Positions 9,118 through 19,083 of a stretch of DNA of 64,000 nt are shown piece by piece. The notes under the pieces were generated by a model. That model made no database searches, was not told where the DNA came from, and saw only the letters and a list, made by a program, of their open reading frames with translations. Position 1 is the first letter of the stretch. Each line of letters begins with the position of its first letter. The position numbers were made by a program, and so were the translations under genes. The DNA comes from Pleurocapsa sp. PCC 7319 (GTDB taxonomy: Bacteria; Cyanobacteriota; Cyanobacteriia; Cyanobacteriales; Xenococcaceae): NCBI RefSeq assembly GCF_000332195.1, contig NZ_KB235922.1:3755322-3819321 (forward strand). The letters are read 5' to 3'.

Positions 9118-10167
9118 CTATGGTTTAAATGAAAGCAAAACTAAGCTAATCACGACAATAGCCAAGACAATAAAACCTGCGATGATTGCTTGGAATTTAT
9201 CTTCTTCTGAGAGTTCTGTCCCTTCAGATTTAGATTTGAGGGCGTGCCAAATATGACCACCAACGAAAGTACCGCATAGAGCAAACTGCACTCCAGCGAA
9301 TTGGCTTAAATCACCACCATAAAGTTCGGTAGGATAAGCCAAGTCATTAAAAGCTACAAAATAACCAGAAGTAAAAGCCATCAAAGCTACTCCTGCCAAA
9401 CTGTAAGATAAAATAGCGTGTCCATTGTAAGTAAAAGTTTTCTTTGCCCAAGCGATAGGTTCGGTCGTAATGTGCCAAATTCCGCCTGCAATACAGGCAA
9501 CACCAACCCAAATATGACCACCTACTAAATCGGGGAGGTTATCTACCGCAGCCATACCCAAGGGATTCCAGACTCCATCTTTGATCCCCACTACATAGCC
9601 CAAGATAGTTACTGGGTTTAGAGTAGCATCCGTTACTAAAGTAATGTCTTCGACGGCAGGATTATAGATGCCACCCCAGAACATTGCTTTCCCAACAAAT
9701 AATAAAGCTGCTGCACCAAGAAAAATTAAATGATGACCCAAGATAAAGCCTAGCTTCTTAGGATCATTCCACTCATAATGAAATTTAGGAGCGCGTCCAG
9801 AACCATCTTGAAGATTGGCTGCACCACGAAAAACATGAAACAATCCCCCTGCTCCCAAAACTGCCGAAGCAGCTAAATGAAGTACGCCAATTACAAAGAA
9901 GGGATAGGTATCAACAATCTCTCCCCCAGCACCAATTCCCCAACCTAAACGAGCTAGATTTGGTAAGAGTAGTAATCCCTGTTCATTTAAGGGAATATTA
10001 GGTATGAAACGGTCTAATTCCAATAGCGTGACAGATCCTGCCCAAAACATAATTAGTCCAGCGTGAGCGATATGCGCTCCCAAAAGTTGACCCGATAAAT
10101 TGATTAAACGAGCATTACCCGATAGCCAACTGTAATCACTATTAGAGATATTAGTAGTTGCGGTCAT
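9118..10167 (-). CDS. Chlorophyll-binding antenna protein (Pcb/IsiA family), seven-helix variant
   Basis: This 349-residue protein belongs to the CP43-like Pcb/IsiA family. Its start [20 protein letters not shown] matches the paralogues. It keeps the helix with [14 protein letters not shown], the [14 protein letters not shown] lumenal segment, the GHHLIFLG helix, and the [10 protein letters not shown] and GGIWHIT histidines that ligate chlorophyll. It departs from the family at the end: the lumenal stretch after [11 protein letters not shown] is cut short, the usual [17 protein letters not shown] helix is replaced by [19 protein letters not shown], and a further hydrophobic helix follows at about 322-346. 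A seventh helix is my inference from hydrophobicity. It lies 105 bases downstream of IsiA and is probably cotranscribed. Confidence 0.88.
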
Positions 10168-10272
10168 GATTTATCTATTTTCCATTACTAAAAACTAAGA
10201 AAGCTCAATGCAAAGGAGAATTTGCACTAAGCTGTAAATGAGAACACGATCAAAAAGCAGTTGGAGAATGTT

Positions 10273-11373
10273 CTATTCGGCAGCCCCTTCAGTGGCTGCT
10301 TGAGGTGTTGCCTTTGGTTTGCCGACCACTGGCGCACCTGCTTGAGGATTTCCTGCATTATCCAGAGCTTGGGTGACTCGCTTGAAATCAAAGCCGATCG
10401 CTCTTAAAGCATGCCAGAGATGACCCTGAAGGAAGAAAAATGCTAAGAAGAAGTGGGCATTTGCCAACCAAGCACGAGCAGTATGGGTACCAGGAGGTAA
10501 AACAGCTGTATCAGTGAAGTAAGGAACAACTCCTAACTTGACATCCAGGGTCGCGCCATAAAATTCAGGAGGATAGGCAAGAGTATTGACCGCACAGAAG
10601 TAAGCAGCCACAAAACCAGCTAAAGCGATCCCGCCAAGGGAATAAGAAAGAATTGCTTCACCCGAAAAAATAAGTTGTTTCTTTGCCCAAGCCAATGGAG
10701 GGGTAATAATGTGCCAGATCCCACCAGCAACCAAAAGAATGCCAACGAAAACATGACCACCAACTAAATCTTCTAGATTATCCACTGAAGCAAAATGAGT
10801 TTGATAACCGAAGATGGTGAGGGGGTTTAACGTTGGCTCCGTGACTATTCGCACATCCTGGATATTGACATCATATAGCCCACCCCAGAACATGGCTTTG
10901 CCAACTAGTAGTAAAGCTCCCAGACCGAGAAATAGTAAATGATGACCGAGAATAATGCCCAATTGCTTGGGATCATCCCATTCAAAGTGGAACCTACGCG
11001 CCCCACCATTCGTCTCTTGTAAATCGCTGGGTGCTTTGAAAGTATGGTAGAGCGCACCTGCACCCAACACAGCAGATGAAATTAAGTGAACTGCACCGAC
11101 AACAAACATCGGATAAGTATCAACAACTTCTCCCCCAGCACCAACACCTAAACCTAAAGTAGCTAGGTGAGGTAAGAGAATCAATCCTTGCTCACCCATC
11201 GGTAAACTAGGATCGAATTTAGACAGTTCAAAAAAAGTAAAAGCTCCCGCCCAAAAAACAATTAAAGCTGCTTGAGCTGCGTGAGCTGCAATAAACAAGC
11301 CAGATAGCTTGGCAAAACGAGCATTTCCCGCCCACCAATCGTATTTAACTTGCGGTTTATCGTATGTTTGCAA
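10273..11373 (-). CDS. isiA: Iron-stress chlorophyll-binding protein IsiA (CP43')
   Basis: The 366-residue protein starts [19 protein letters not shown], the typical IsiA opening, and has the six helices of the CP43-like family. Conserved sites include [46 protein letters not shown]-like [11 protein letters not shown] and the final [19 protein letters not shown] helix. IsiA forms chlorophyll rings around photosystem I when iron is scarce and dissipates excess light. The start is a TTG at 11371-11373, eight bases after a GAGG motif; family alignment supports it. A 27-residue Ala/Pro/Thr/Lys tail after the last helix is longer than in the best-known IsiA proteins. It is read away from the plus-strand antenna genes. 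Confidence 0.92.
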
Positions 11374-11995
11374 AACGAAACCTCGCTGTTAACAGAGTGT
11401 GTATTGTAAAGCTTGTTACTAAATATTCTCAACAAGCTACCAACAAGTTCATTTTGCATTTATTGATAGTCTTTTGCAACATGATTGCTAACAAAACTTA
11501 ATAATAAACAGTTTTTGCAAATTCTTGCTTCGAGCGATCGCTTGATCAAAAAAGCCATTAGCTGTTAGCTTTTAGCCTTTAGCTCTAAAGACTAGTTAAG
11601 TTAATAGCAAGGGAGCTATAAGCTATTGGGTTTAATTCCCTGTCGTCTATAGGTTGTCTACAATTAGTTAGGGTCTAAAACCCCATTTGATTGAACGTGG
11701 TTGTATAAGCTAATAGCTAAGGGCTAATAGCTTATGGCTAGGGCGAAGCTCTCTATCAGTAATCAGTTCTTACGAAGTTTGCTTATGCTTGCAGTATCCC
11801 TTTGGGACAACGGAGGGAACCTCCCTAAAGGGTTCAGCACTTTGCTCAAGTCGGGGAACCCGCCCAACGCAAGTGCTTCACCGCAACGCAACTTCGCGCT
11901 AATCAGTAATCAGTAATCAGTCAGTTATGATCGGGAGATATTGAAAATGCGATTATGCTAATGCTTAGCCTTAGGATCGCACTTTGATCGTAAAT
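11374..11995. other. Intergenic region upstream of isiA with repeats
   Basis: The first ~150 bases should hold the isiA promoter; an AT-rich stretch is present but no clear Fur box was found. From 11560 to 11760 there are many AGCTATTAGC/AGCTTATAGC-type units. A 32-base block at 11841-11872 (TTTGCTCAAGTCGGGG then AACCCGCCCAACGCAA) recurs inverted and identical at 53277-53308. A run of CAGTAAT units lies near 11900-11923. No gene is supported here. Confidence 0.6.
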
Positions 11996-12823
11996 ATGAA
12001 CACGAAACAGTTTCCTGCCAGGCTTCATTTATTAATCGCTAAAAATAATGACAACGGAATTGTTATTCGACGAGGTCCTTCTAAGCAAGTATGTATTCTG
12101 GCTTGGGATCGGAGCAGAAATACTTTTACTGTCAGTCAGTGGTTAAAGGGAAGAATTTATGAAAGAAGATCTGACATTTCTCCTTCTGGAAAGTACTGGA
12201 TTTACTTTGCTATGAATGGTAAATGGCAATCAGAAGCTAAAGGTTCTTGGACTGCGATCGCCAGAGCACCTTGGCTAAAAGCTATTGAGTTGTTACCAAA
12301 GGGGGATTGTTGGCAAGGGGGAGGTTTGTTTCTTGACGATCAAACCTATTGGTTAAATGGTTGTCATGAGTCACTTTTGACTACCAAGGAAATAGCTAGA
12401 AATAAATCCTATCAACCCAAAAATCAATATGGTGGGGAATGCCTTAATGTTTACTTCAATCGACTTCAGCGAGATGGATGGAATCTAACTACTGATTGGA
12501 AACAAGGACAATGGCATTTGCCAACTATCTTTGACAAGAAATTATTGCATGGCTGGAAAATTAAAAAAATTTGCCATGCACAAGTTGATTCTCCTCCAGG
12601 AAAAGGATGCTATTGGGATGAACATGAACTACATAACCAGAATGGCGAAATATTGACTAAACCAAAATGGGAGTGGGCTGATTGGGTAGATAATGCCCTA
12701 GTTTTTGCTGAGGATGGATGTCTGTATAAACTCACTATTGAAAGTTTTAATGACCTCAGTGAAGCCCAACTACTTCATGATTTTAATAGTTACAAATTTG
12801 AAAATAGACAGGCACCGTATTAA
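11996..12823 (+). CDS. Uncharacterised protein, Trp- and Gly-rich
   Basis: I do not recognise a named family. The 275-residue protein (from the ATG at 11996; a TTG four codons earlier is possible) is soluble, with many tryptophans. Recurrent motifs are ILAWDRSRNTF, SPSGKYWIYF, a SWTAIARAPWLKAI segment and the turn GDCWQGGGLFLDD at about residues 100-115. Similar 'WTA-R-P' and 'GD-W-GGGLF' motifs occur in unannotated proteins of other bacteria, so it is likely a conserved beta-propeller-like or lectin-like fold; this is inference. It lies inside the iron-stress island, between the divergent antenna genes, and reads in the same direction as the plus-strand ones. Confidence 0.7.
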   Translation: MNTKQFPARLHLLIAKNNDNGIVIRRGPSKQVCILAWDRSRNTFTVSQWLKGRIYERRSDISPSGKYWIYFAMNGKWQSEAKGSWTAIARAPWLKAIELLPKGDCWQGGGLFLDDQTYWLNGCHESLLTTKEIARNKSYQPKNQYGGECLNVYFNRLQRDGWNLTTDWKQGQWHLPTIFDKKLLHGWKIKKICHAQVDSPPGKGCYWDEHELHNQNGEILTKPKWEWADWVDNALVFAEDGCLYKLTIESFNDLSEAQLLHDFNSYKFENRQAPY

Positions 12824-12998
12824 GTAGATCCACTTTATTAAACATGGAATGGTTAAGATCGGGGTTAGGTGATAGTGGTTAGGGATTAGGGAGAATCATC
12901 TTCAATTTTTTTACTGTTCTATTAGACGTTTTATTAGGTGGAGCTACTTAATGGCGATTCACACTAAAATAAGTAAGATAAAAAGTCTGATATAAATC

Positions 12999-13244
12999 AT
13001 GCCTAAGATATCAATATATCTGGATGAAGAACGATTAAAAGACTTAGAAAGACTAGTAAAAAGCAATCCTCACCTGACTAAGCGTAACCGCAGTGAATTA
13101 GTCAGTTATTTGGTTGAGCAAGCAGCGATCAAGCAAAAAAGAAGTGAAATGCTAGAAGCTGCCGAGGCAATTGATGAATTAAATTTGGGTTGGAGTGAAG
13201 AGGAACAAAATTGCGCGATTTTCGATGCAGAAGTATCTGGTTAG
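12999..13244 (+). CDS. Ribbon-helix-helix antitoxin-like protein
   Basis: This 81-residue protein opens with a ribbon strand MPKISIYLDEERLKDLE, then a helix-turn-helix region KRNRSELVSYLVEQA, as in RHH/CopG-type antitoxins. The tail WSEEEQNCAIFDAE resembles the toxin-binding C-terminus of MazE-like antitoxins. RHH proteins dimerise and bind operator DNA. No toxin (MazF, RelE or PIN type) follows: the 220 bases before the antenna gene at 13465 have no such frame. It may be an orphan antitoxin or a small transcription regulator. Its position directly upstream of the antenna genes makes a regulatory role possible but unproven. Confidence 0.7.
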   Translation: MPKISIYLDEERLKDLERLVKSNPHLTKRNRSELVSYLVEQAAIKQKRSEMLEAAEAIDELNLGWSEEEQNCAIFDAEVSG

Positions 13245-13415
13245 TCTGTTTCGAGGAGTTTTTACATTTACACACTCCATCTAACTGGCGATCGCCCAAA
13301 ACCAAATAAAATAATTGAATTTCCTCTGTCAATTAGGTGTCTTTATATTTCTTATAAAGAATAACTTTCAATAAAGAGATTTTTACGTTAAGCTTAATCT
13401 TGAAAAATTATTGAA

Positions 13416-13442
13416 GATTATTCTCATTAAAATAATTATTCT
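13416..13442 (+). promoter_or_regulatory. Candidate Fur box upstream of the plus-strand antenna genes
   Basis: The sequence GATTATTCTCATTAAAAT and the following AATTATTCT give on the reverse strand AATGAGAATAATC and GAATAATTATT, close to Fur half-sites. It lies 23 bases before the GTG start at 13465, where a repressor could block transcription under iron sufficiency. AT-rich DNA makes chance matches likely. Confidence 0.3.
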
Positions 13443-13464
13443 TTAAATTAGGAGGCTAGTAACT

Positions 13465-14523
13465 GTGACTGCTGTAACGGAAACACCAGGAAAAATCGCA
13501 GACTCCACAGATATTCCTTGGTGGGCGGGCAATGCTCGTCTCAAAGATATTTCGGGTAAATTGCTGGGAGCCCATGTAGCTCATGGTGGACTAATCGTTT
13601 TTTGGGCAGGAGCGACAACTCTCTGGGAGATTTCTCGTTTTGATCTAGCTCAACCAATGTACGAACAGGGTTTAATTCTACTACCTCACCTTGCTGCTTT
13701 AGGTTGGGGAGTTGGTGCAGAAGGCGAAATTGTTGATACTTACCCCTATTTTGTGATTGGTGCTTTGCACTTAATTTCTTCAGCTTTTTTAGGTTTTGGT
13801 GGTATCTATCACGCCGTATTTGGACCTCAATATTTACAAAACACTTCTGAATTTTTTGGTTATGAATGGCGAGATACCTCCAAGATGACTGACATTTTGG
13901 GAATTCACTTGTTATTGTTGGGCATAGGTGCATTTCTTCTGGTTGCCAAGGCAATGTTCTTTGGTGGTTTATACGATCCAGCGATCGCTGAGGTGAGAAC
14001 TGTAACGACTCCCACTCTCAATCCAGCAATTATTTTTGGTTATTTATTTGGTGCGATTGGTCACGATTGGATTGCGAGCGTAGATAATCTAGAAGATTTG
14101 GTTGGGGGTCACGTTTGGATTGGAAGTATTTTGCTCCTTGGTGGCTTATGGCATATCAATACCAAGCCCTTAAACTGGACACGTAATTTATTTGTTTGGT
14201 CAGGAGAAGCTTATCTTTCCTATAGTTTGGGGGCGTTAGCACTAATGGGTTTTGTTGCTGCTTACTTCTGTGGAGTAAATACCCTTGCTTACCCCGAAGT
14301 CTTTTATGGCTCAGCTCTATCGTTTAAATTAGATATCTTTCCTTACTTTGCCAGTGATAATAGTGTTATTTCTTCGCGAGCATGGTTAGCTAATGCCCAC
14401 TTCTTCCTGGCTTTCTTTTTACTTCAGGGACATATTTTTCACGCCCTAAAAGCTGCTGGCTTTGATTTTAAACAAGGAAGGATTGTTCCTTCTTTGATAG
14501 GTCCTGAACCAGATTTTGACTAA
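13465..14523 (+). CDS. Chlorophyll-binding antenna protein (Pcb/IsiA family)
   Basis: The 352-residue protein has all six CP43-like helices: [16 protein letters not shown], the [14 protein letters not shown] segment, [36 protein letters not shown] and [19 protein letters not shown]. It differs from IsiA in a longer loop after helix III ([14 protein letters not shown]) which it shares with the PsaL fusion downstream. The start is a GTG at 13465 with a strong AGGAGG at 13450-13455. By family knowledge it binds chlorophyll a and serves photosystem I or II. It is followed after 159 bases by the PsaL fusion on the same strand, so the two probably form one transcript. Confidence 0.9.
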
Positions 14524-14526
14524 ATG

Positions 14527-14570
14527 AACTGAGTTCGGAGTTCGGAATTCGGAGTTCGGAGTTTGGAGTG
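14527..14570. repeat. GGAGTTCGG short tandem repeats
   Basis: Between the two antenna genes the units GAGTTCGGA, GTTCGGAATTCGGA and GGAGTTCGGAGTTTGGA occur in series. The same type of tract recurs near 18016-18090, 25003-25090, 53154-53182 and 53990-54030, always in intergenic DNA near gene ends. It looks like a small interspersed repeat family of this genome. Confidence 0.7.
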
Positions 14571-14682
14571 AGCTAAAAGCGGAGGGATCTGAAAGTGGAA
14601 AGCCTACTTGACTAATTAATATTCTTAACCGAGCTGAGATTAATTTGACTTCACACAAGTATAGATAAAATGAGGTGACAAG

Positions 14683-16194
14683 ATGACAGCCGTAGTTGCG
14701 GAAAGTCCTAATAGAAATAAAATTCCCGATGTAGGTTGGTGGGCAGGAAATGCTCGCCTAACTAATTTATCAGGTAAGTTGCTCGGCGCACATATTGCTC
14801 AGGCAAGTTTAATTGTCTTTTGGGCAGGGGCAATGACTCTGTTTGAGATTTCTCAATATAGTCCAAATTTACCAATGTACGAACAGGGGTTAATTTTATT
14901 ACCCCATCTGGCAACTCTGGGCATTGGGGTAGGTGATGGTAGTCAGGTAGTTGATACCTATCCCTATTTTGTAATTGGAGTAGTCCATTTAATTTCTTCT
15001 GCTGTATTAGGTGCTGGTGGAATCTATCATTCCCTTTTGGGCGCAGAAGTTTTAGCGGAAAATGATACTTTTGCCGGTTTTTTTGGCTATGATTGGCAAG
15101 ACGATGATAAAATGACCACGATTATTGGTATTCATCTCACTTTGCTGGGTATAGGTGCATTCCTACTGGCTTTTAAAGCGATGTTTTGGGGCGGTCTTTT
15201 CGATCCGACTGCGGGAGATTTGGGACAGGTAAGGATTGTCACCGACCCGACAGTTAACCCGATAACTATTTTTGGCTATTTGTTTGGAGCTGCTGGCGAT
15301 CGCGGTATGGCAGCAGTAAATAACCTTGAAGATCTAGTAGGTGGTCACTTGTGGGTTGGTTCTCTGTGTATCCTGGGTGGATTTTGGCACATAGGAACTA
15401 GACCCTTTGGTTGGGCGCGACAGGTATTAGTCTATTCGGGAGAAGCTTATCTCTCTTATAGCTTAGGTGCGATCGCCTATATGGGTTTTTTAGCAGCTTA
15501 TTTCTGTACTTACAACAGCACAGCCTACCCAGAAGTTTTTTATGGTCCAGTGGATCTAATTCAAACTGATGCCGGAGTAATTACTGCTCGAGGTTGGTTA
15601 GCTACGGCACACTTTGTCTTAGCATTAATATTTCTTTTTGGTCATATTTGGCACGCTATTCGCGCCAGAGGCAAAGAAGCAGGATTTGATTTTAACGCCC
15701 GCAACGTTTCCTTGGTTGTATCAGATGATCCCTTTACAGGTAATCTCAAAACTCCTCTTAACTCTTCCGATTTTAGTCTTTGGTTGCTCGGTAATTTGCC
15801 TTTCTATCGCCCAGGTATTTCTCCTCTATTTAGAGGCTTAGAAATTGGTATGGCTCATGGCTACCTGCTATTTGGTCCCTTTGCTCTACTAGGACCCCAA
15901 AGGAACGCAGCTCAAGCTAACTTTATTGGTTTAATCGGTGCCTGCGGCTTAGTAGTGATTTTGACAATTTGTCTATCAATCTATGGAGGCGTTTCTTTTA
16001 AGAAAGAATGGCGATCGGAGTTTATGACCTATAGCACCGCTAATCGCAATATCCCTGATGCCCTCAAGACAATTGACGGCTGGAGTCAATTTGCTGCCGC
16101 CTTCTTGGTTGGTGGTATGGGAGGTGCTTTCTTTGCTTATCTTATTTACGACAATCTAGATGTACTCAAAGCTATATTAGCTGGCAATATCTAG
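14683..16194 (+). CDS. Chlorophyll-binding antenna fused to a PsaL-like domain
   Basis: This 503-residue protein joins two photosystem modules. Residues 1-340 are a Pcb/IsiA-type antenna ([52 protein letters not shown]). From about residue 347 to the end the sequence is PsaL-like: [18 protein letters not shown], then [35 protein letters not shown], and a C-terminal [15 protein letters not shown] helix. PsaL anchors photosystem I trimers, so the fusion should place the antenna at the PsaL site. Such fusions are known from some cyanobacteria. The start has a GTGACAAG-ATG context; no strong Shine-Dalgarno is seen. It lies upstream of isiB, in what appears to be an iron-stress operon. Confidence 0.92.
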
Positions 16195-16603
16195 AATCAG
16201 CAAAATTTTTTCAATTTTATTGAAATTAATTTGCAATACATGTATGATAGTTGAGGGTGAAAAACTCATACCTTAAGTTTTAAGGGGTTGGTACTATTTT
16301 CAACCCAATCCCCATTCCTACAAGACTTAGAGTCTTATGTAAAAGAATTTTTGAATTTAATTTGGTCAAGTACTTGTGATTCTAAATAAATTGCCAAAGT
16401 TGAATATCATCTTGGGTAATTAAAAATAATTACTAATAAAGTGCTTAGCCTGTGATTGAGCGAAGCTTACCGCCATAGGCGATTGGCTTTGCCACTGCCC
16501 GAAGGGCAATCGCCAAACTAACTACAAACTAACTATTTTGTTCTGATGGCTCAGAAGATAAATAGCTAAACAAACATCGAAAAAATCAGAGGAATTACGA
16601 ATA
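16195..16603. other. Leader region of flavodoxin, with inverted repeat
   Basis: No gene is seen. A weak stem (GGGTTG/CAACCC) lies at about 16285-16305 without a T tract. At 16478-16514 GGCGATTG and CAATCGCC flank an inner GCCC-GAA-GGGC hairpin; a near-identical block occurs at 31897-31937 in the opposite orientation. A promoter for isiB may lie here, since the gap to the upstream gene is over 400 bases. Confidence 0.55.
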
Positions 16604-17116
16604 ATGGCAAAAGTTGGTCTTTTTTACGGTTCTACTACAGGCAAAACAGAAGCAGCAGCCGAAGAAATTCAGTCTGCTTTAGGTGGCGAAGATGTGGTGA
16701 CATTGCATGAAATTGCTGATGTATCTGAGGAATTCGCCGATTATGATTGTTTGATTATTGGTTGTCCTACATGGGATGTGGGCGAACTTCAGAGTGATTG
16801 GGAAGGTTTCTATGATGACGAATTAGATAGTGTTAATTTTAGTGGTAAAAAAGTAGCCTATTTTGGCACAGGCGATCAGGTAGGTTACGCTGATAACTTT
16901 CAGGATGCGATGGGAATTTTAGAAGAGAAAATTTCTAGCCTAGGAGGAACTACTGTTGGTCATTGGTCTACTGATGGCTACGAGCATGAAGCATCTAGAG
17001 CAGAAAAGAATGGTAAATTTGTCGGTTTAGCTCTCGATGAAGATAATCAATCAGAATTAACTGAAGGCAGAATTCAGGAATGGACGACACAACTCAAATC
17101 TGAATTCGGTCTCTAA
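16604..17116 (+). CDS. isiB: Flavodoxin IsiB
   Basis: The 170-residue protein is a long-chain flavodoxin. The FMN phosphate loop is GSTTGKTE at residues 10-17; the tryptophan loop PTWDVGELQSDW and the tyrosine loop GTGDQVGYADNFQDAMG bracket the flavin ring. Flavodoxin replaces ferredoxin as electron carrier from photosystem I under iron shortage. An AGAGGAA motif eight bases before the ATG is a plausible ribosome binding site. It follows the antenna genes and precedes the IsiC-like hydrolase, the classic isiA-isiB-isiC order extended here with extra antenna genes. Confidence 0.96.
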   Translation: MAKVGLFYGSTTGKTEAAAEEIQSALGGEDVVTLHEIADVSEEFADYDCLIIGCPTWDVGELQSDWEGFYDDELDSVNFSGKKVAYFGTGDQVGYADNFQDAMGILEEKISSLGGTTVGHWSTDGYEHEASRAEKNGKFVGLALDEDNQSELTEGRIQEWTTQLKSEFGL

Positions 17117-17259
17117 AGTTTGGGAGTTCTCCTCTCCTAAAGGGCGGGGGAAAGTAATTGCATTTAATGAGCCATAAAAGTCTTTTACTTTTCCCTTTTA
17201 TTATTTTTCGCTATTTTTTCGAGCAATTTGTCTTTCAGATATCCATACACACAGATAAA

Positions 17260-18000
17260 ATGTCTAAATCAACTACCAGAGTTTGGATCAACGCCAATCC
17301 CAGTTTTAAATATTTTGATGGCAGGGTAGTACGTAATCTTTCTCGGCAAGGGACTCTAGCCTACTGGGAATATTGCCAAAATCAAGATGAGGCAAGCTCT
17401 ATAGATATTGCTTTAAATTTACTACAGGATTATTTGGCAACTATATCAGAACCAGTCGATTTGATTGGTCATGGAACAGGTGGAGTGCTGGGCTTGCTTT
17501 ATACCCGTCTATATCCCCGTAAAGTCAAATCATTAACGTTGATATCTGTGGGTTTTAATCCCGCCACCGATTGGCAAGCTCATTATTACCAAATGCGAAA
17601 ATTATTGCCTTGCAGTCAAGAGAGACTACTGTCACGCATGGTACAAATGATGTTTGGCGTTCAAGATCGAGCAAATACTCTAAATTTAATCAAAGTATTG
17701 CAACAAGATCTTGTTACTGCCCCTAGCCTTCACTCTCTCTATCAGCAATATTCTATTCCTATTGGAGGAGTTTCAGTACCTTTAATGGTGTGTGGGAGTA
17801 AAAACGATGGAATTGTCGATCTTCCTGCACTTAGCAGATGGTCAGAATGTCTTCGTAAAGAAGATCGAATGTTAATCGTACCATTTGGGAATCACTTCCC
17901 CCACTATTTTTTCCCCGAATATACGGCTGAACAGATTTTGCAATTTTGGCAGCATGTTGAACTTTATTCCGGTAATATTTCTCTGGAAGCTATTAAGTAA
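17260..18000 (+). CDS. isiC: IsiC-like alpha/beta hydrolase without nucleophile serine
   Basis: Counted from the ATG at 17260, this 246-residue protein resembles the alpha/beta hydrolase IsiC that follows isiB in other cyanobacteria. A strand-helix pair DLIGHGTGGVLGLLYTRL sits where the nucleophile elbow is expected, but the motif is G-H-G-T-G and the usual serine is replaced by glycine. The rest of the fold is present: VPLMVCGSKNDGIVD carries the acid and VPFGNHFPHYF the histidine region. A longer start at 17158 adds 34 hydrophobic residues and is possible. The role of IsiC is not established in general; loss of the serine suggests non-catalytic binding or a different chemistry. Confidence 0.75.
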   Translation: MSKSTTRVWINANPSFKYFDGRVVRNLSRQGTLAYWEYCQNQDEASSIDIALNLLQDYLATISEPVDLIGHGTGGVLGLLYTRLYPRKVKSLTLISVGFNPATDWQAHYYQMRKLLPCSQERLLSRMVQMMFGVQDRANTLNLIKVLQQDLVTAPSLHSLYQQYSIPIGGVSVPLMVCGSKNDGIVDLPALSRWSECLRKEDRMLIVPFGNHFPHYFFPEYTAEQILQFWQHVELYSGNISLEAIK

Positions 18001-18528: not shown

Positions 18529-19083
18529 TTAGTTAGCTTTATTTCCTACGAAAGCCAAGGTTAAACTGTCGTGAACTAGGAAATGATGTAAGTGATAGGC
18601 TCTTTCTTCGGTTTTGAGCAAGATCTGCTCATAAAGATAACGAGTAGCGCGATCGCCCAAACTTTCGGCTTGAGCAGCTAAACGACGTAACAGCTTAATA
18701 ATTTCTTGTTCTGCTGCCAGATCGTGTTCTACCATCTGACGTTCATTGTAGACTCCATCAGCTTCTGGTTCAAAACAACACAATTCAGCCAATTTGGTAA
18801 AGCTAGCAGCAGGAATTCCTCCCAGACCATTCAGCCTTTCGGCAATATCATGAACATGCCCCTGTACATCTCCGTAACTTTCTTCAAAAAACTCGTGTAA
18901 TGAGTAAAATTCTGAACCTTCTACAACGAAGTGATGCTTTTGATACTGTAAGTACAAACCTTGAAAACTCGCAAGAGCACTATTAAACCCTTCGCATACT
19001 GGTTCTGTGACGCTTTTATCTAGTAATACGGGATTATCTTCTACGTGTCCAAAGGGACGCAACAAATCTTCTGCTACAGACAT
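18529..19083 (-). CDS. dps: Dps family ferritin-like protein (DpsA)
   Basis: The 184-residue protein has the four-helix Dps core. The inter-subunit ferroxidase residues follow the standard spacing: His51 (KHHFVVEG), His63 and Glu67 (SLHEFFEE), then His78 and Glu82 (VHDIAERL). In E. coli Dps the fourth position is Asp78; here it is His, as I recall for a zinc-binding cyanobacterial Dps. By family knowledge it oxidises and stores iron using peroxide and protects DNA. It converges on the iron-stress cluster with 528 bases between, so its control is separate. The C-terminal extension FVGNKAN is short. Confidence 0.92.

Follow-up and report, generated by a model that had tools for sequence, protein, structure and literature searches.

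In the coccoid cyanobacterium Pleurocapsa sp. PCC 7319, four chlorophyll-binding antenna genes, one of them carrying a PsaL domain, lie in two divergent halves beside a flavodoxin gene. Do these genes form a single iron-stress antenna for photosystem I (PSI), and do the two genes lying between the halves belong to it? We addressed these questions in a 64,000-nt stretch of contig NZ_KB235922.1 (assembly GCF_000332195.1; genome 7.39 Mb, 99.99% complete), hereafter the window. Sequence comparison and analogy with Anabaena make it very probable that this is an iron-stress PSI antenna locus of a Pleurocapsales-related cyanobacterium, comprising four IsiA types and flavodoxin, with the fusion replacing PsaL on PSI monomers.

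The first-pass annotation, made from the window alone, had described two minus-strand and two plus-strand genes of the Pcb/IsiA family followed by flavodoxin, with a PsaL domain after residue 347 of the last antenna gene. Profile searches bear out this description and its coordinates. All four antenna frames match Pfam PF00421 over the six-helix core (197.5–268.7 bits against a cut-off of 25), flavodoxin profiles match the gene that follows, and the PsaL family PF02605 matches residues 347–493 of the fusion (E = 1.7e-58). In the whole genome PF00421 is otherwise matched by only one gene of psbB length and one psbC, the latter a 482-aa open frame scoring 870 bits with NCBIfam TIGR01153 (cut-off 603). 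The large lumenal loop of CP43 is missing from the antenna genes of the window: the Pfam match jumps from profile positions 271–273 to 445–446 in three of them, and stops at position 272 in the outer minus-strand gene. These loop-less matches indicate IsiA/Pcb proteins rather than psbC products. The unfused antenna frames are 349–366 aa long against 482 aa for psbC, and the four proteins are 52–64% identical to one another over the antenna domain.

Searches of the PDB with phmmer distinguish four types, for which we use the names IsiA1, 2, 3 and 5 of PMC9938196. IsiA1 matches 6kif_1 first and then 7y3f_4 and 9zjt_4 (all E ~1e-181), and it alone among the four matches 6kif_1, 7y3f_4, 9zjt_4, 6k33_a1 and 6nwa_W at E < 1e-177. 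The fusion matches 7y3f_1 over residues 16–492 (E = 6.2e-199), a sequence also contained in 9zjt. The top match of the plus-strand gene upstream of the fusion is 9zjt_2 and that of the outer minus-strand gene is 9zjt_3, a 320-aa chain. Among the matches listed, the 9zjt_4 (IsiA1) sequence appears in four chains of 9zjt, and 9zjt_2, 9zjt_3 and the fusion appear in a single chain each. Our literature search found no paper describing 9ZJT, and we infer from the matches and from gene order that 9zjt_2 is IsiA3 and 9zjt_3 is IsiA5. By homology, then, the four genes are the isiA1/isiA2/isiA3/isiA5 set, corresponding one-to-one to the proteins of the Anabaena PSI-IsiA structures 7Y3F and 9ZJT, a system that is already known.

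A tree of 123 antenna domains, drawn by a short search from 33 chosen loci, the psbC of this genome and two further loci, places each type on one side of a branch. Support by the Shimodaira-Hasegawa-like approximate likelihood ratio test (SH-aLRT) is 99 for the 37 isiA2L rows, 90 for the 30 isiA3 rows, 100 for the 28 isiA1 rows and 99 for the 27 isiA5 rows, among which two long branches (L110 and L118) join. Only 4 label changes occur on the tree, the lowest possible number, although the labels are best BLAST hits to the window and not fully independent of the tree. As grouped here, each of the four antenna types, like the PsaL fusion, is a lineage of its own that is common to many cyanobacteria.

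PsaL occurs twice in this genome, in the fusion and in a free gene located elsewhere, whose open frame has 162 codons; the two are 50% identical. The PsaL tree contains 88 rows, of which 35 are labelled fused and 53 free, and 52 of the free rows make up one side (SH-aLRT 96). The exception, L232 from genome G152, is labelled free yet stands among the fused rows, and there the fusion is interrupted by a TGA. This split makes the fusion look like one old event shared by many cyanobacteria rather than a local one. An alignment of 17 fusions keeps most antenna histidines as well as the PsaL motif RGLExGMAHGY.

Table 1. Features of the antenna locus and its surroundings, with coordinates in the window.
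Feature	Coordinates	Strand	Evidence
IsiA5-type antenna gene, 349 aa	9118..10167	-	best PDB match 9zjt_3; isiA5 clade SH-aLRT 99; extra C-terminal helix at residues ~327-345
IsiA1, canonical iron-stress-induced protein A, 366 aa, TTG start	10273..11373	-	NCBIfam TIGR03041 490.6 bits; PDB IsiA matches; isiA1 clade 100
isiA1 upstream region, kept in relatives	11374..11516	-	78% identity to L177 over 11330-11516
Insertion or replacement specific to this lineage, lying between the proximal promoters and outside the antenna system	11517..13313		gap comparison with divergent loci
Inserted 279-aa gene, predicted beta-rich, outside the antenna system	11984..12823	+	25/388 class genomes, 0/80 isi loci
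Inserted orphan antitoxin-type (ribbon-helix-helix-like) gene, outside the antenna system	12999..13244	+	homologues adjoin mazF-like sequence (13/14)
Start remnant of a mazF-like toxin gene, overlapping the antitoxin end	13208..13255	+	tblastn, 50% over 16 aa
isiA3 upstream region, kept in relatives	13314..13464	+	65% identity to L177 over 13314-13522
IsiA3-type antenna gene, 352 aa, GTG start	13465..14523	+	best PDB match 9zjt_2; isiA3 clade 90
IsiA2/CBPV-type antenna-PsaL fusion, 503 aa, PsaL domain at residues 347-493	14683..16194	+	Pfam; 7y3f_1 match; isiA2L clade 99
isiB, long-chain flavodoxin	16604..17116	+	NF006736 243 bits and TIGR01752 217.7 bits, both above cut-off
isiC-like alpha/beta hydrolase	17158..18000	+	Pfam PF00561 29.8 bits, cut-off 25.8; missing from the first-pass annotation
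dpsA, iron-storage/DNA-protection gene	18529..19083	-	NF052461 334.5 bits, cut-off 300; missing from the first-pass annotation

Related systems are compared here as described in the papers cited. In Anabaena PCC 7120, a purified PSI-IsiA supercomplex contains all four IsiA types. Three of the genes are strongly iron-induced and isiA2 less strongly so, the IsiA2-PsaL (CBPV) fusion replaces PsaL on monomeric PSI, and free PsaL is proposed to compete with IsiA2 (PMC9938196). The window is like Anabaena in its four protein types, which correspond one-to-one, in an IsiA2 with a C-terminal PsaL domain and in a separate psaL. It differs in the extra C-terminal helix of its IsiA5 and in the ~1.8-kb insertion that splits its halves, and it may also differ in layout, its halves being divergent and the fusion being followed by isiB and the hydrolase. 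This correspondence with the proteins of the Anabaena supercomplex bears on the earlier suggestion of a multi-component antenna in which IsiA forms rings around PSI and the fusion and variants fill other sites. A multi-component PSI antenna is well supported by homology, whereas the ring is not, since the Anabaena form consists of six IsiAs on a PSI monomer (PMC9938196).

The Nodularia spumigena locus likewise has four isiA/psbC-like genes, one of them a PsbC-PsaL hybrid (CBPV), together with flavodoxin and a hydrolase, and its authors suggested that the hybrid supplies PSI monomers with additional antenna (PMC3610870). The window shares the four antenna genes, one with PsaL, as well as isiB and the alpha/beta hydrolase, but the Nodularia genes form one numbered run with flavodoxin and hydrolase between two antenna pairs, whereas the window is divergent. 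Clusters of the order isiA2-isiA3-isiA4-cpcG2-isiA5 in Leptolyngbya JSC-1 and isiA2-isiA3-isiA4-cpcG2 in Trichodesmium are similar in being multi-copy, iron-regulated and equipped with a PsaL-bearing member, and it was in the homologous Trichodesmium cluster that expression differed most between low and high iron (PMC12090762). They differ from the window in that the Trichodesmium isiA1 has a distant locus number and in containing cpcG2, a gene not searched for here. The canonical isiAB(C) operon has a single isiA and is not known to include a fusion. In Synechocystis and Synechococcus it comprises isiA, flavodoxin and isiC (PMC8635728), all of which have likenesses in the window, isiB providing the flavodoxin linkage. 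For the hydrolase, the name isiC is based on position.

The arrangement itself recurs. Neighbourhoods were counted in the best 80 loci of a scan of named-genome contigs, so that they describe close relatives, and many of these contigs are short, making the counts lower bounds. The isiA3 gene lies directly upstream of the fusion in at least 70 of the 80 loci, which argues that the arrangement is not due to chance. Flavodoxin follows the fusion on the same strand in at least 57, a hydrolase homologue is present anywhere in at least 49, and all four antenna types occur together in at least 31. A divergent layout is seen in 22, with isiA1 facing isiA3 in 18 and facing the fusion directly in 4. These are mostly Pleurocapsales and Chroococcales, along with Symploca, Prochloron relatives and one Nostocales locus (L090), the other Nostocales loci with isiA1 being collinear. 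A structurally solved but narrowly sampled Anabaena antenna system is thus extended to coccoid cyanobacteria with a recurring divergent layout. Within the genus of the window, the fusion was seen in 6 of 13 sampled genomes (its own included, and one cut by a contig edge), indicating that the locus is patchy. Four close relatives of the locus (L047, L048, L049 and L073) have no isiA3 between isiA1 and the fusion, apparently through loss. In Prochloron didemni (L060) and Candidatus Paraprochloron terpiosi (L080), of a lineage known for chlorophyll b and Pcb antennae, the PsaL fusion adjoins isiA1 and isiA3.

We propose that low iron would bring about joint production of IsiA1, IsiA3, IsiA5, the IsiA2-PsaL fusion and flavodoxin, the substitute for ferredoxin. 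Through its PsaL domain the fusion would occupy the PsaL site of a PSI monomer, as seen in Anabaena, preventing PSI oligomerisation and placing the antenna domain beside PsaA. IsiA1, IsiA3 and IsiA5 would serve as further antenna units that pass excitation energy to PSI, and the product of the free psaL may compete to form ordinary PSI oligomers, as has been proposed for Anabaena. The two intervening genes would be an insertion, with both proximal promoters retained.

Several observations weigh against this reading. For the window, everything beyond the sequence is inference. At residue 40 the fusion carries Gln instead of the His found in 16 of 17 aligned fusions; this His is part of the first-helix AH..AH motif and possibly a chlorophyll ligand. 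An unfused IsiA2-type gene (L245, 3601–4671) is placed in the isiA2L group of the antenna tree, and unfused IsiA2-type frames of 369 and 374 aa with 69–70% identity occur in genomes G381 and G252; these frames, which together span 357–374 aa, indicate that the IsiA2 type does not always bear PsaL. The AlphaFold2 model of the fusion is poor, with a predicted local distance difference test score (pLDDT) of 63.8; it contributes nothing and was not used. Finally, a Fur-box scan with a 19-base consensus did not rise above dinucleotide shuffles in any of four window regions: of 300 shuffles, 31 were as good on the isiA3 side, 50 on the isiA1 side, 35 upstream of the fusion and 294 upstream of isiB. 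Two of 18 regions in nine relatives exceeded shuffles (L177 right, 1/100; L050 right, 3/100), which is too little to claim a site.

The lack of a Fur box above chance would also fit the alternative that the variants serve some other condition, such as low light, far-red light or general oxidative stress, rather than chiefly iron stress, as proposed for IsiX. IsiX-type antenna proteins are tied to low or far-red light (PMC4477158) and isiA responds to several stresses. Nevertheless, we regard this alternative as improbable given the recurrent flavodoxin linkage (57/80 loci), the iron induction of the Anabaena homologues, if less strong for isiA2 (PMC9938196), and the iron response of the Trichodesmium cluster (PMC12090762). 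Another possibility is an IsrR-type antisense RNA covering each of the four antenna genes, all of which match Rfam RF01419 at 107–132 bits (gathering threshold 52); in Nodularia an antisense start was reported within nsp37510, by position the isiA3-type gene (PMC3610870). But the psbC of this genome matches RF01419 at 180.5 bits, above every isi gene of the window, L051, L090 and L107. The match is therefore not specific to isiA: it stems from homology of the coding sequences and is no evidence of an antisense RNA, so we rejected IsrR on the four genes and consider such coverage improbable. Rfam IsrR matches in this gene family should, by the same token, not be taken for antisense RNAs.

There remains the possibility, raised in the first-pass annotation, that the uncharacterised 279-aa gene and a ribbon-helix-helix (RHH) regulator between the halves belong to the system and regulate its divergent promoters. 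Both are open frames located between the halves, an orphan antitoxin could retain DNA-binding activity, and other genomes carry well-conserved versions of the 279-aa protein. Yet the gap between the halves is 237–501 nt in 22 of 22 divergent loci (stop-to-stop frames, no gap limit set) as against ~2.1 kb in the window. In the nearest relative found (L177, genome G392), whose fusion is 83% identical and whose isiA1 is cut by a contig end, it is 457 nt. Blocks proximal to isiA1 and to isiA3 both align with L177 (Table 1), and this conservation on both flanks indicates that a middle of ~1.8 kb was inserted or replaced; as judged from the alignment, the insertion left both proximal promoters in place. 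Neither inserted gene was matched in any of the 80 named loci at E ≤ 0.01, nor in L177. The 279-aa gene has matches in 25 of the 388 genomes of the class and in 6 of 60 relatives (own genome counted in both), and the RHH-like gene in 24 of 388 class genomes (own included). Five genomes have both the 279-aa gene and an IsiA2-type fusion: in G075, G084, G405 and G414 the two are on different contigs, and in G419 28 kb separates them, although with draft contigs nearness is possible. The 279-aa protein has no Pfam or NCBIfam family and only a PHROGs match at E = 0.12; its AlphaFold2 model (pLDDT 81) gave propeller-like but poor Foldseek matches, with query-normalised template modelling scores of at most 0.37 among those listed.

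The RHH-like gene resembles one half of a MazEF/PemIK pair. Pfam RHH_1 matches it at E = 0.37 and two of its homologues at 0.009 and 0.028, all below the curated cut-off. In 13 of 14 homologous loci a mazF-like match directly follows on the same strand, with at least 66 aa in 12 of them; L172 has none. Two of the toxins adjoining RHH homologues score 78.4 and 70.7 bits with Pfam PemK_toxin (cut-off 23.1). The window has no downstream MazF-type toxin gene, just a short remnant that overlaps the end of the RHH-like frame: two such toxins, searched by tblastn against 11374–13600, match it at E = 0.005 (in this 2.2-kb search). The remnant overlaps the antitoxin frame in the register seen for the intact pair of L171, and stop codons follow it. 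The window thus differs from a MazEF/PemIK module in that the toxin is degraded and the antitoxin frame alone is left. Taken together, these comparisons lead us to read the RHH-like gene as the antitoxin half of a decayed module and not as an isi regulator, and make a regulatory role of the two inserted genes in the antenna system highly improbable. A second remnant of this kind is found in L165 (1617–1691), where an antitoxin-type gene has a mazF-like match of just 25 aa. Short tandem repeats with 7- and 14-base units lie within the inserted region at 11558–11921.

Two details of the antenna system go beyond the literature found, and both are specific differences open to test: the extra helix of IsiA5 and a genus in which PsaL was detected only as part of the antenna fusion. 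The IsiA5-type protein extends ~34 aa beyond helix 6 and contains there one further hydrophobic helix (hydropathy 3.24; 9121–9222, minus strand), which lies past the end of the Anabaena chain 9zjt_3. Counting the window but leaving out the broken copy in L116 as too short, 23 of 41 IsiA5 rows have this conserved helix. Of the 18 rows without it, L047 is cut by its contig, L068, L069 and L125 have hydrophilic tails, and the remaining 14, which are all of the Nostocales rows, end at helix 6. On the antenna tree an 18-row isiA5 subclade (SH-aLRT 95) has the extra helix, L047 excepted, and a 9-row subclade (88) lacks it by inspection, a distribution for which one change suffices. The helix had no PDB match at E ≤ 10 and, in Pfam, only weak matches to unrelated families below cut-off. 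The known relative IsiX has a C-terminal tail of almost 100 aa that includes one additional helix, and it is linked to apcD4/apcB3 (PMC4477158). That paper was the only one returned by our literature search for an extra transmembrane helix together with IsiA. The IsiA5 helix is accordingly a new detail of a known sort, and IsiX was rejected as the identity of this protein because of its ~34-aa tail and its linkage to isiA1 and flavodoxin. One may speculate, though we think it rather unlikely, that two of the four antenna proteins anchor on PSI, the seventh helix of IsiA5 docking at a small-subunit site or binding a partner, and that the supercomplex of Pleurocapsales and Chroococcales is assembled unlike that of Anabaena.

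The second detail concerns free PsaL. Among 49 genomes chosen for having the fusion, 46 have two or more PsaL matches, and three have a single match inside the fused frame: G075 (99% complete), G086 (93%) and G392 (82%). G075 and G086 are of one genus, and a second search returned identical single matches. Their fusions (L245, 5977–7536, and L246, 764–2323, respectively) have the fused PsaL domain on a long branch. In this genus the fusion could have permanently replaced free PsaL, or the free gene could lie on a missing contig or be highly divergent. Our literature search, covering titles and the starts of abstracts, returned nothing on a genus without free PsaL.

Some smaller features of the window may be added. 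IsiA1, like the fusion, has Gln at the site equivalent to fusion residue 40. A sigma-70 promoter scan gave 15 sites against a shuffle mean of 22.4, i.e. fewer than in shuffles, and a sigma-70-like site at 11432–11403 (minus strand) within the conserved isiA1 upstream block proves nothing. Between isiA1 and isiA5, at 10233–10202 (minus strand), there is a 13-pair stem resembling a terminator, which could lower isiA5 expression relative to isiA1. The dpsA gene, present in 6 of the 80 loci, is probably a mere neighbour of the antenna locus.

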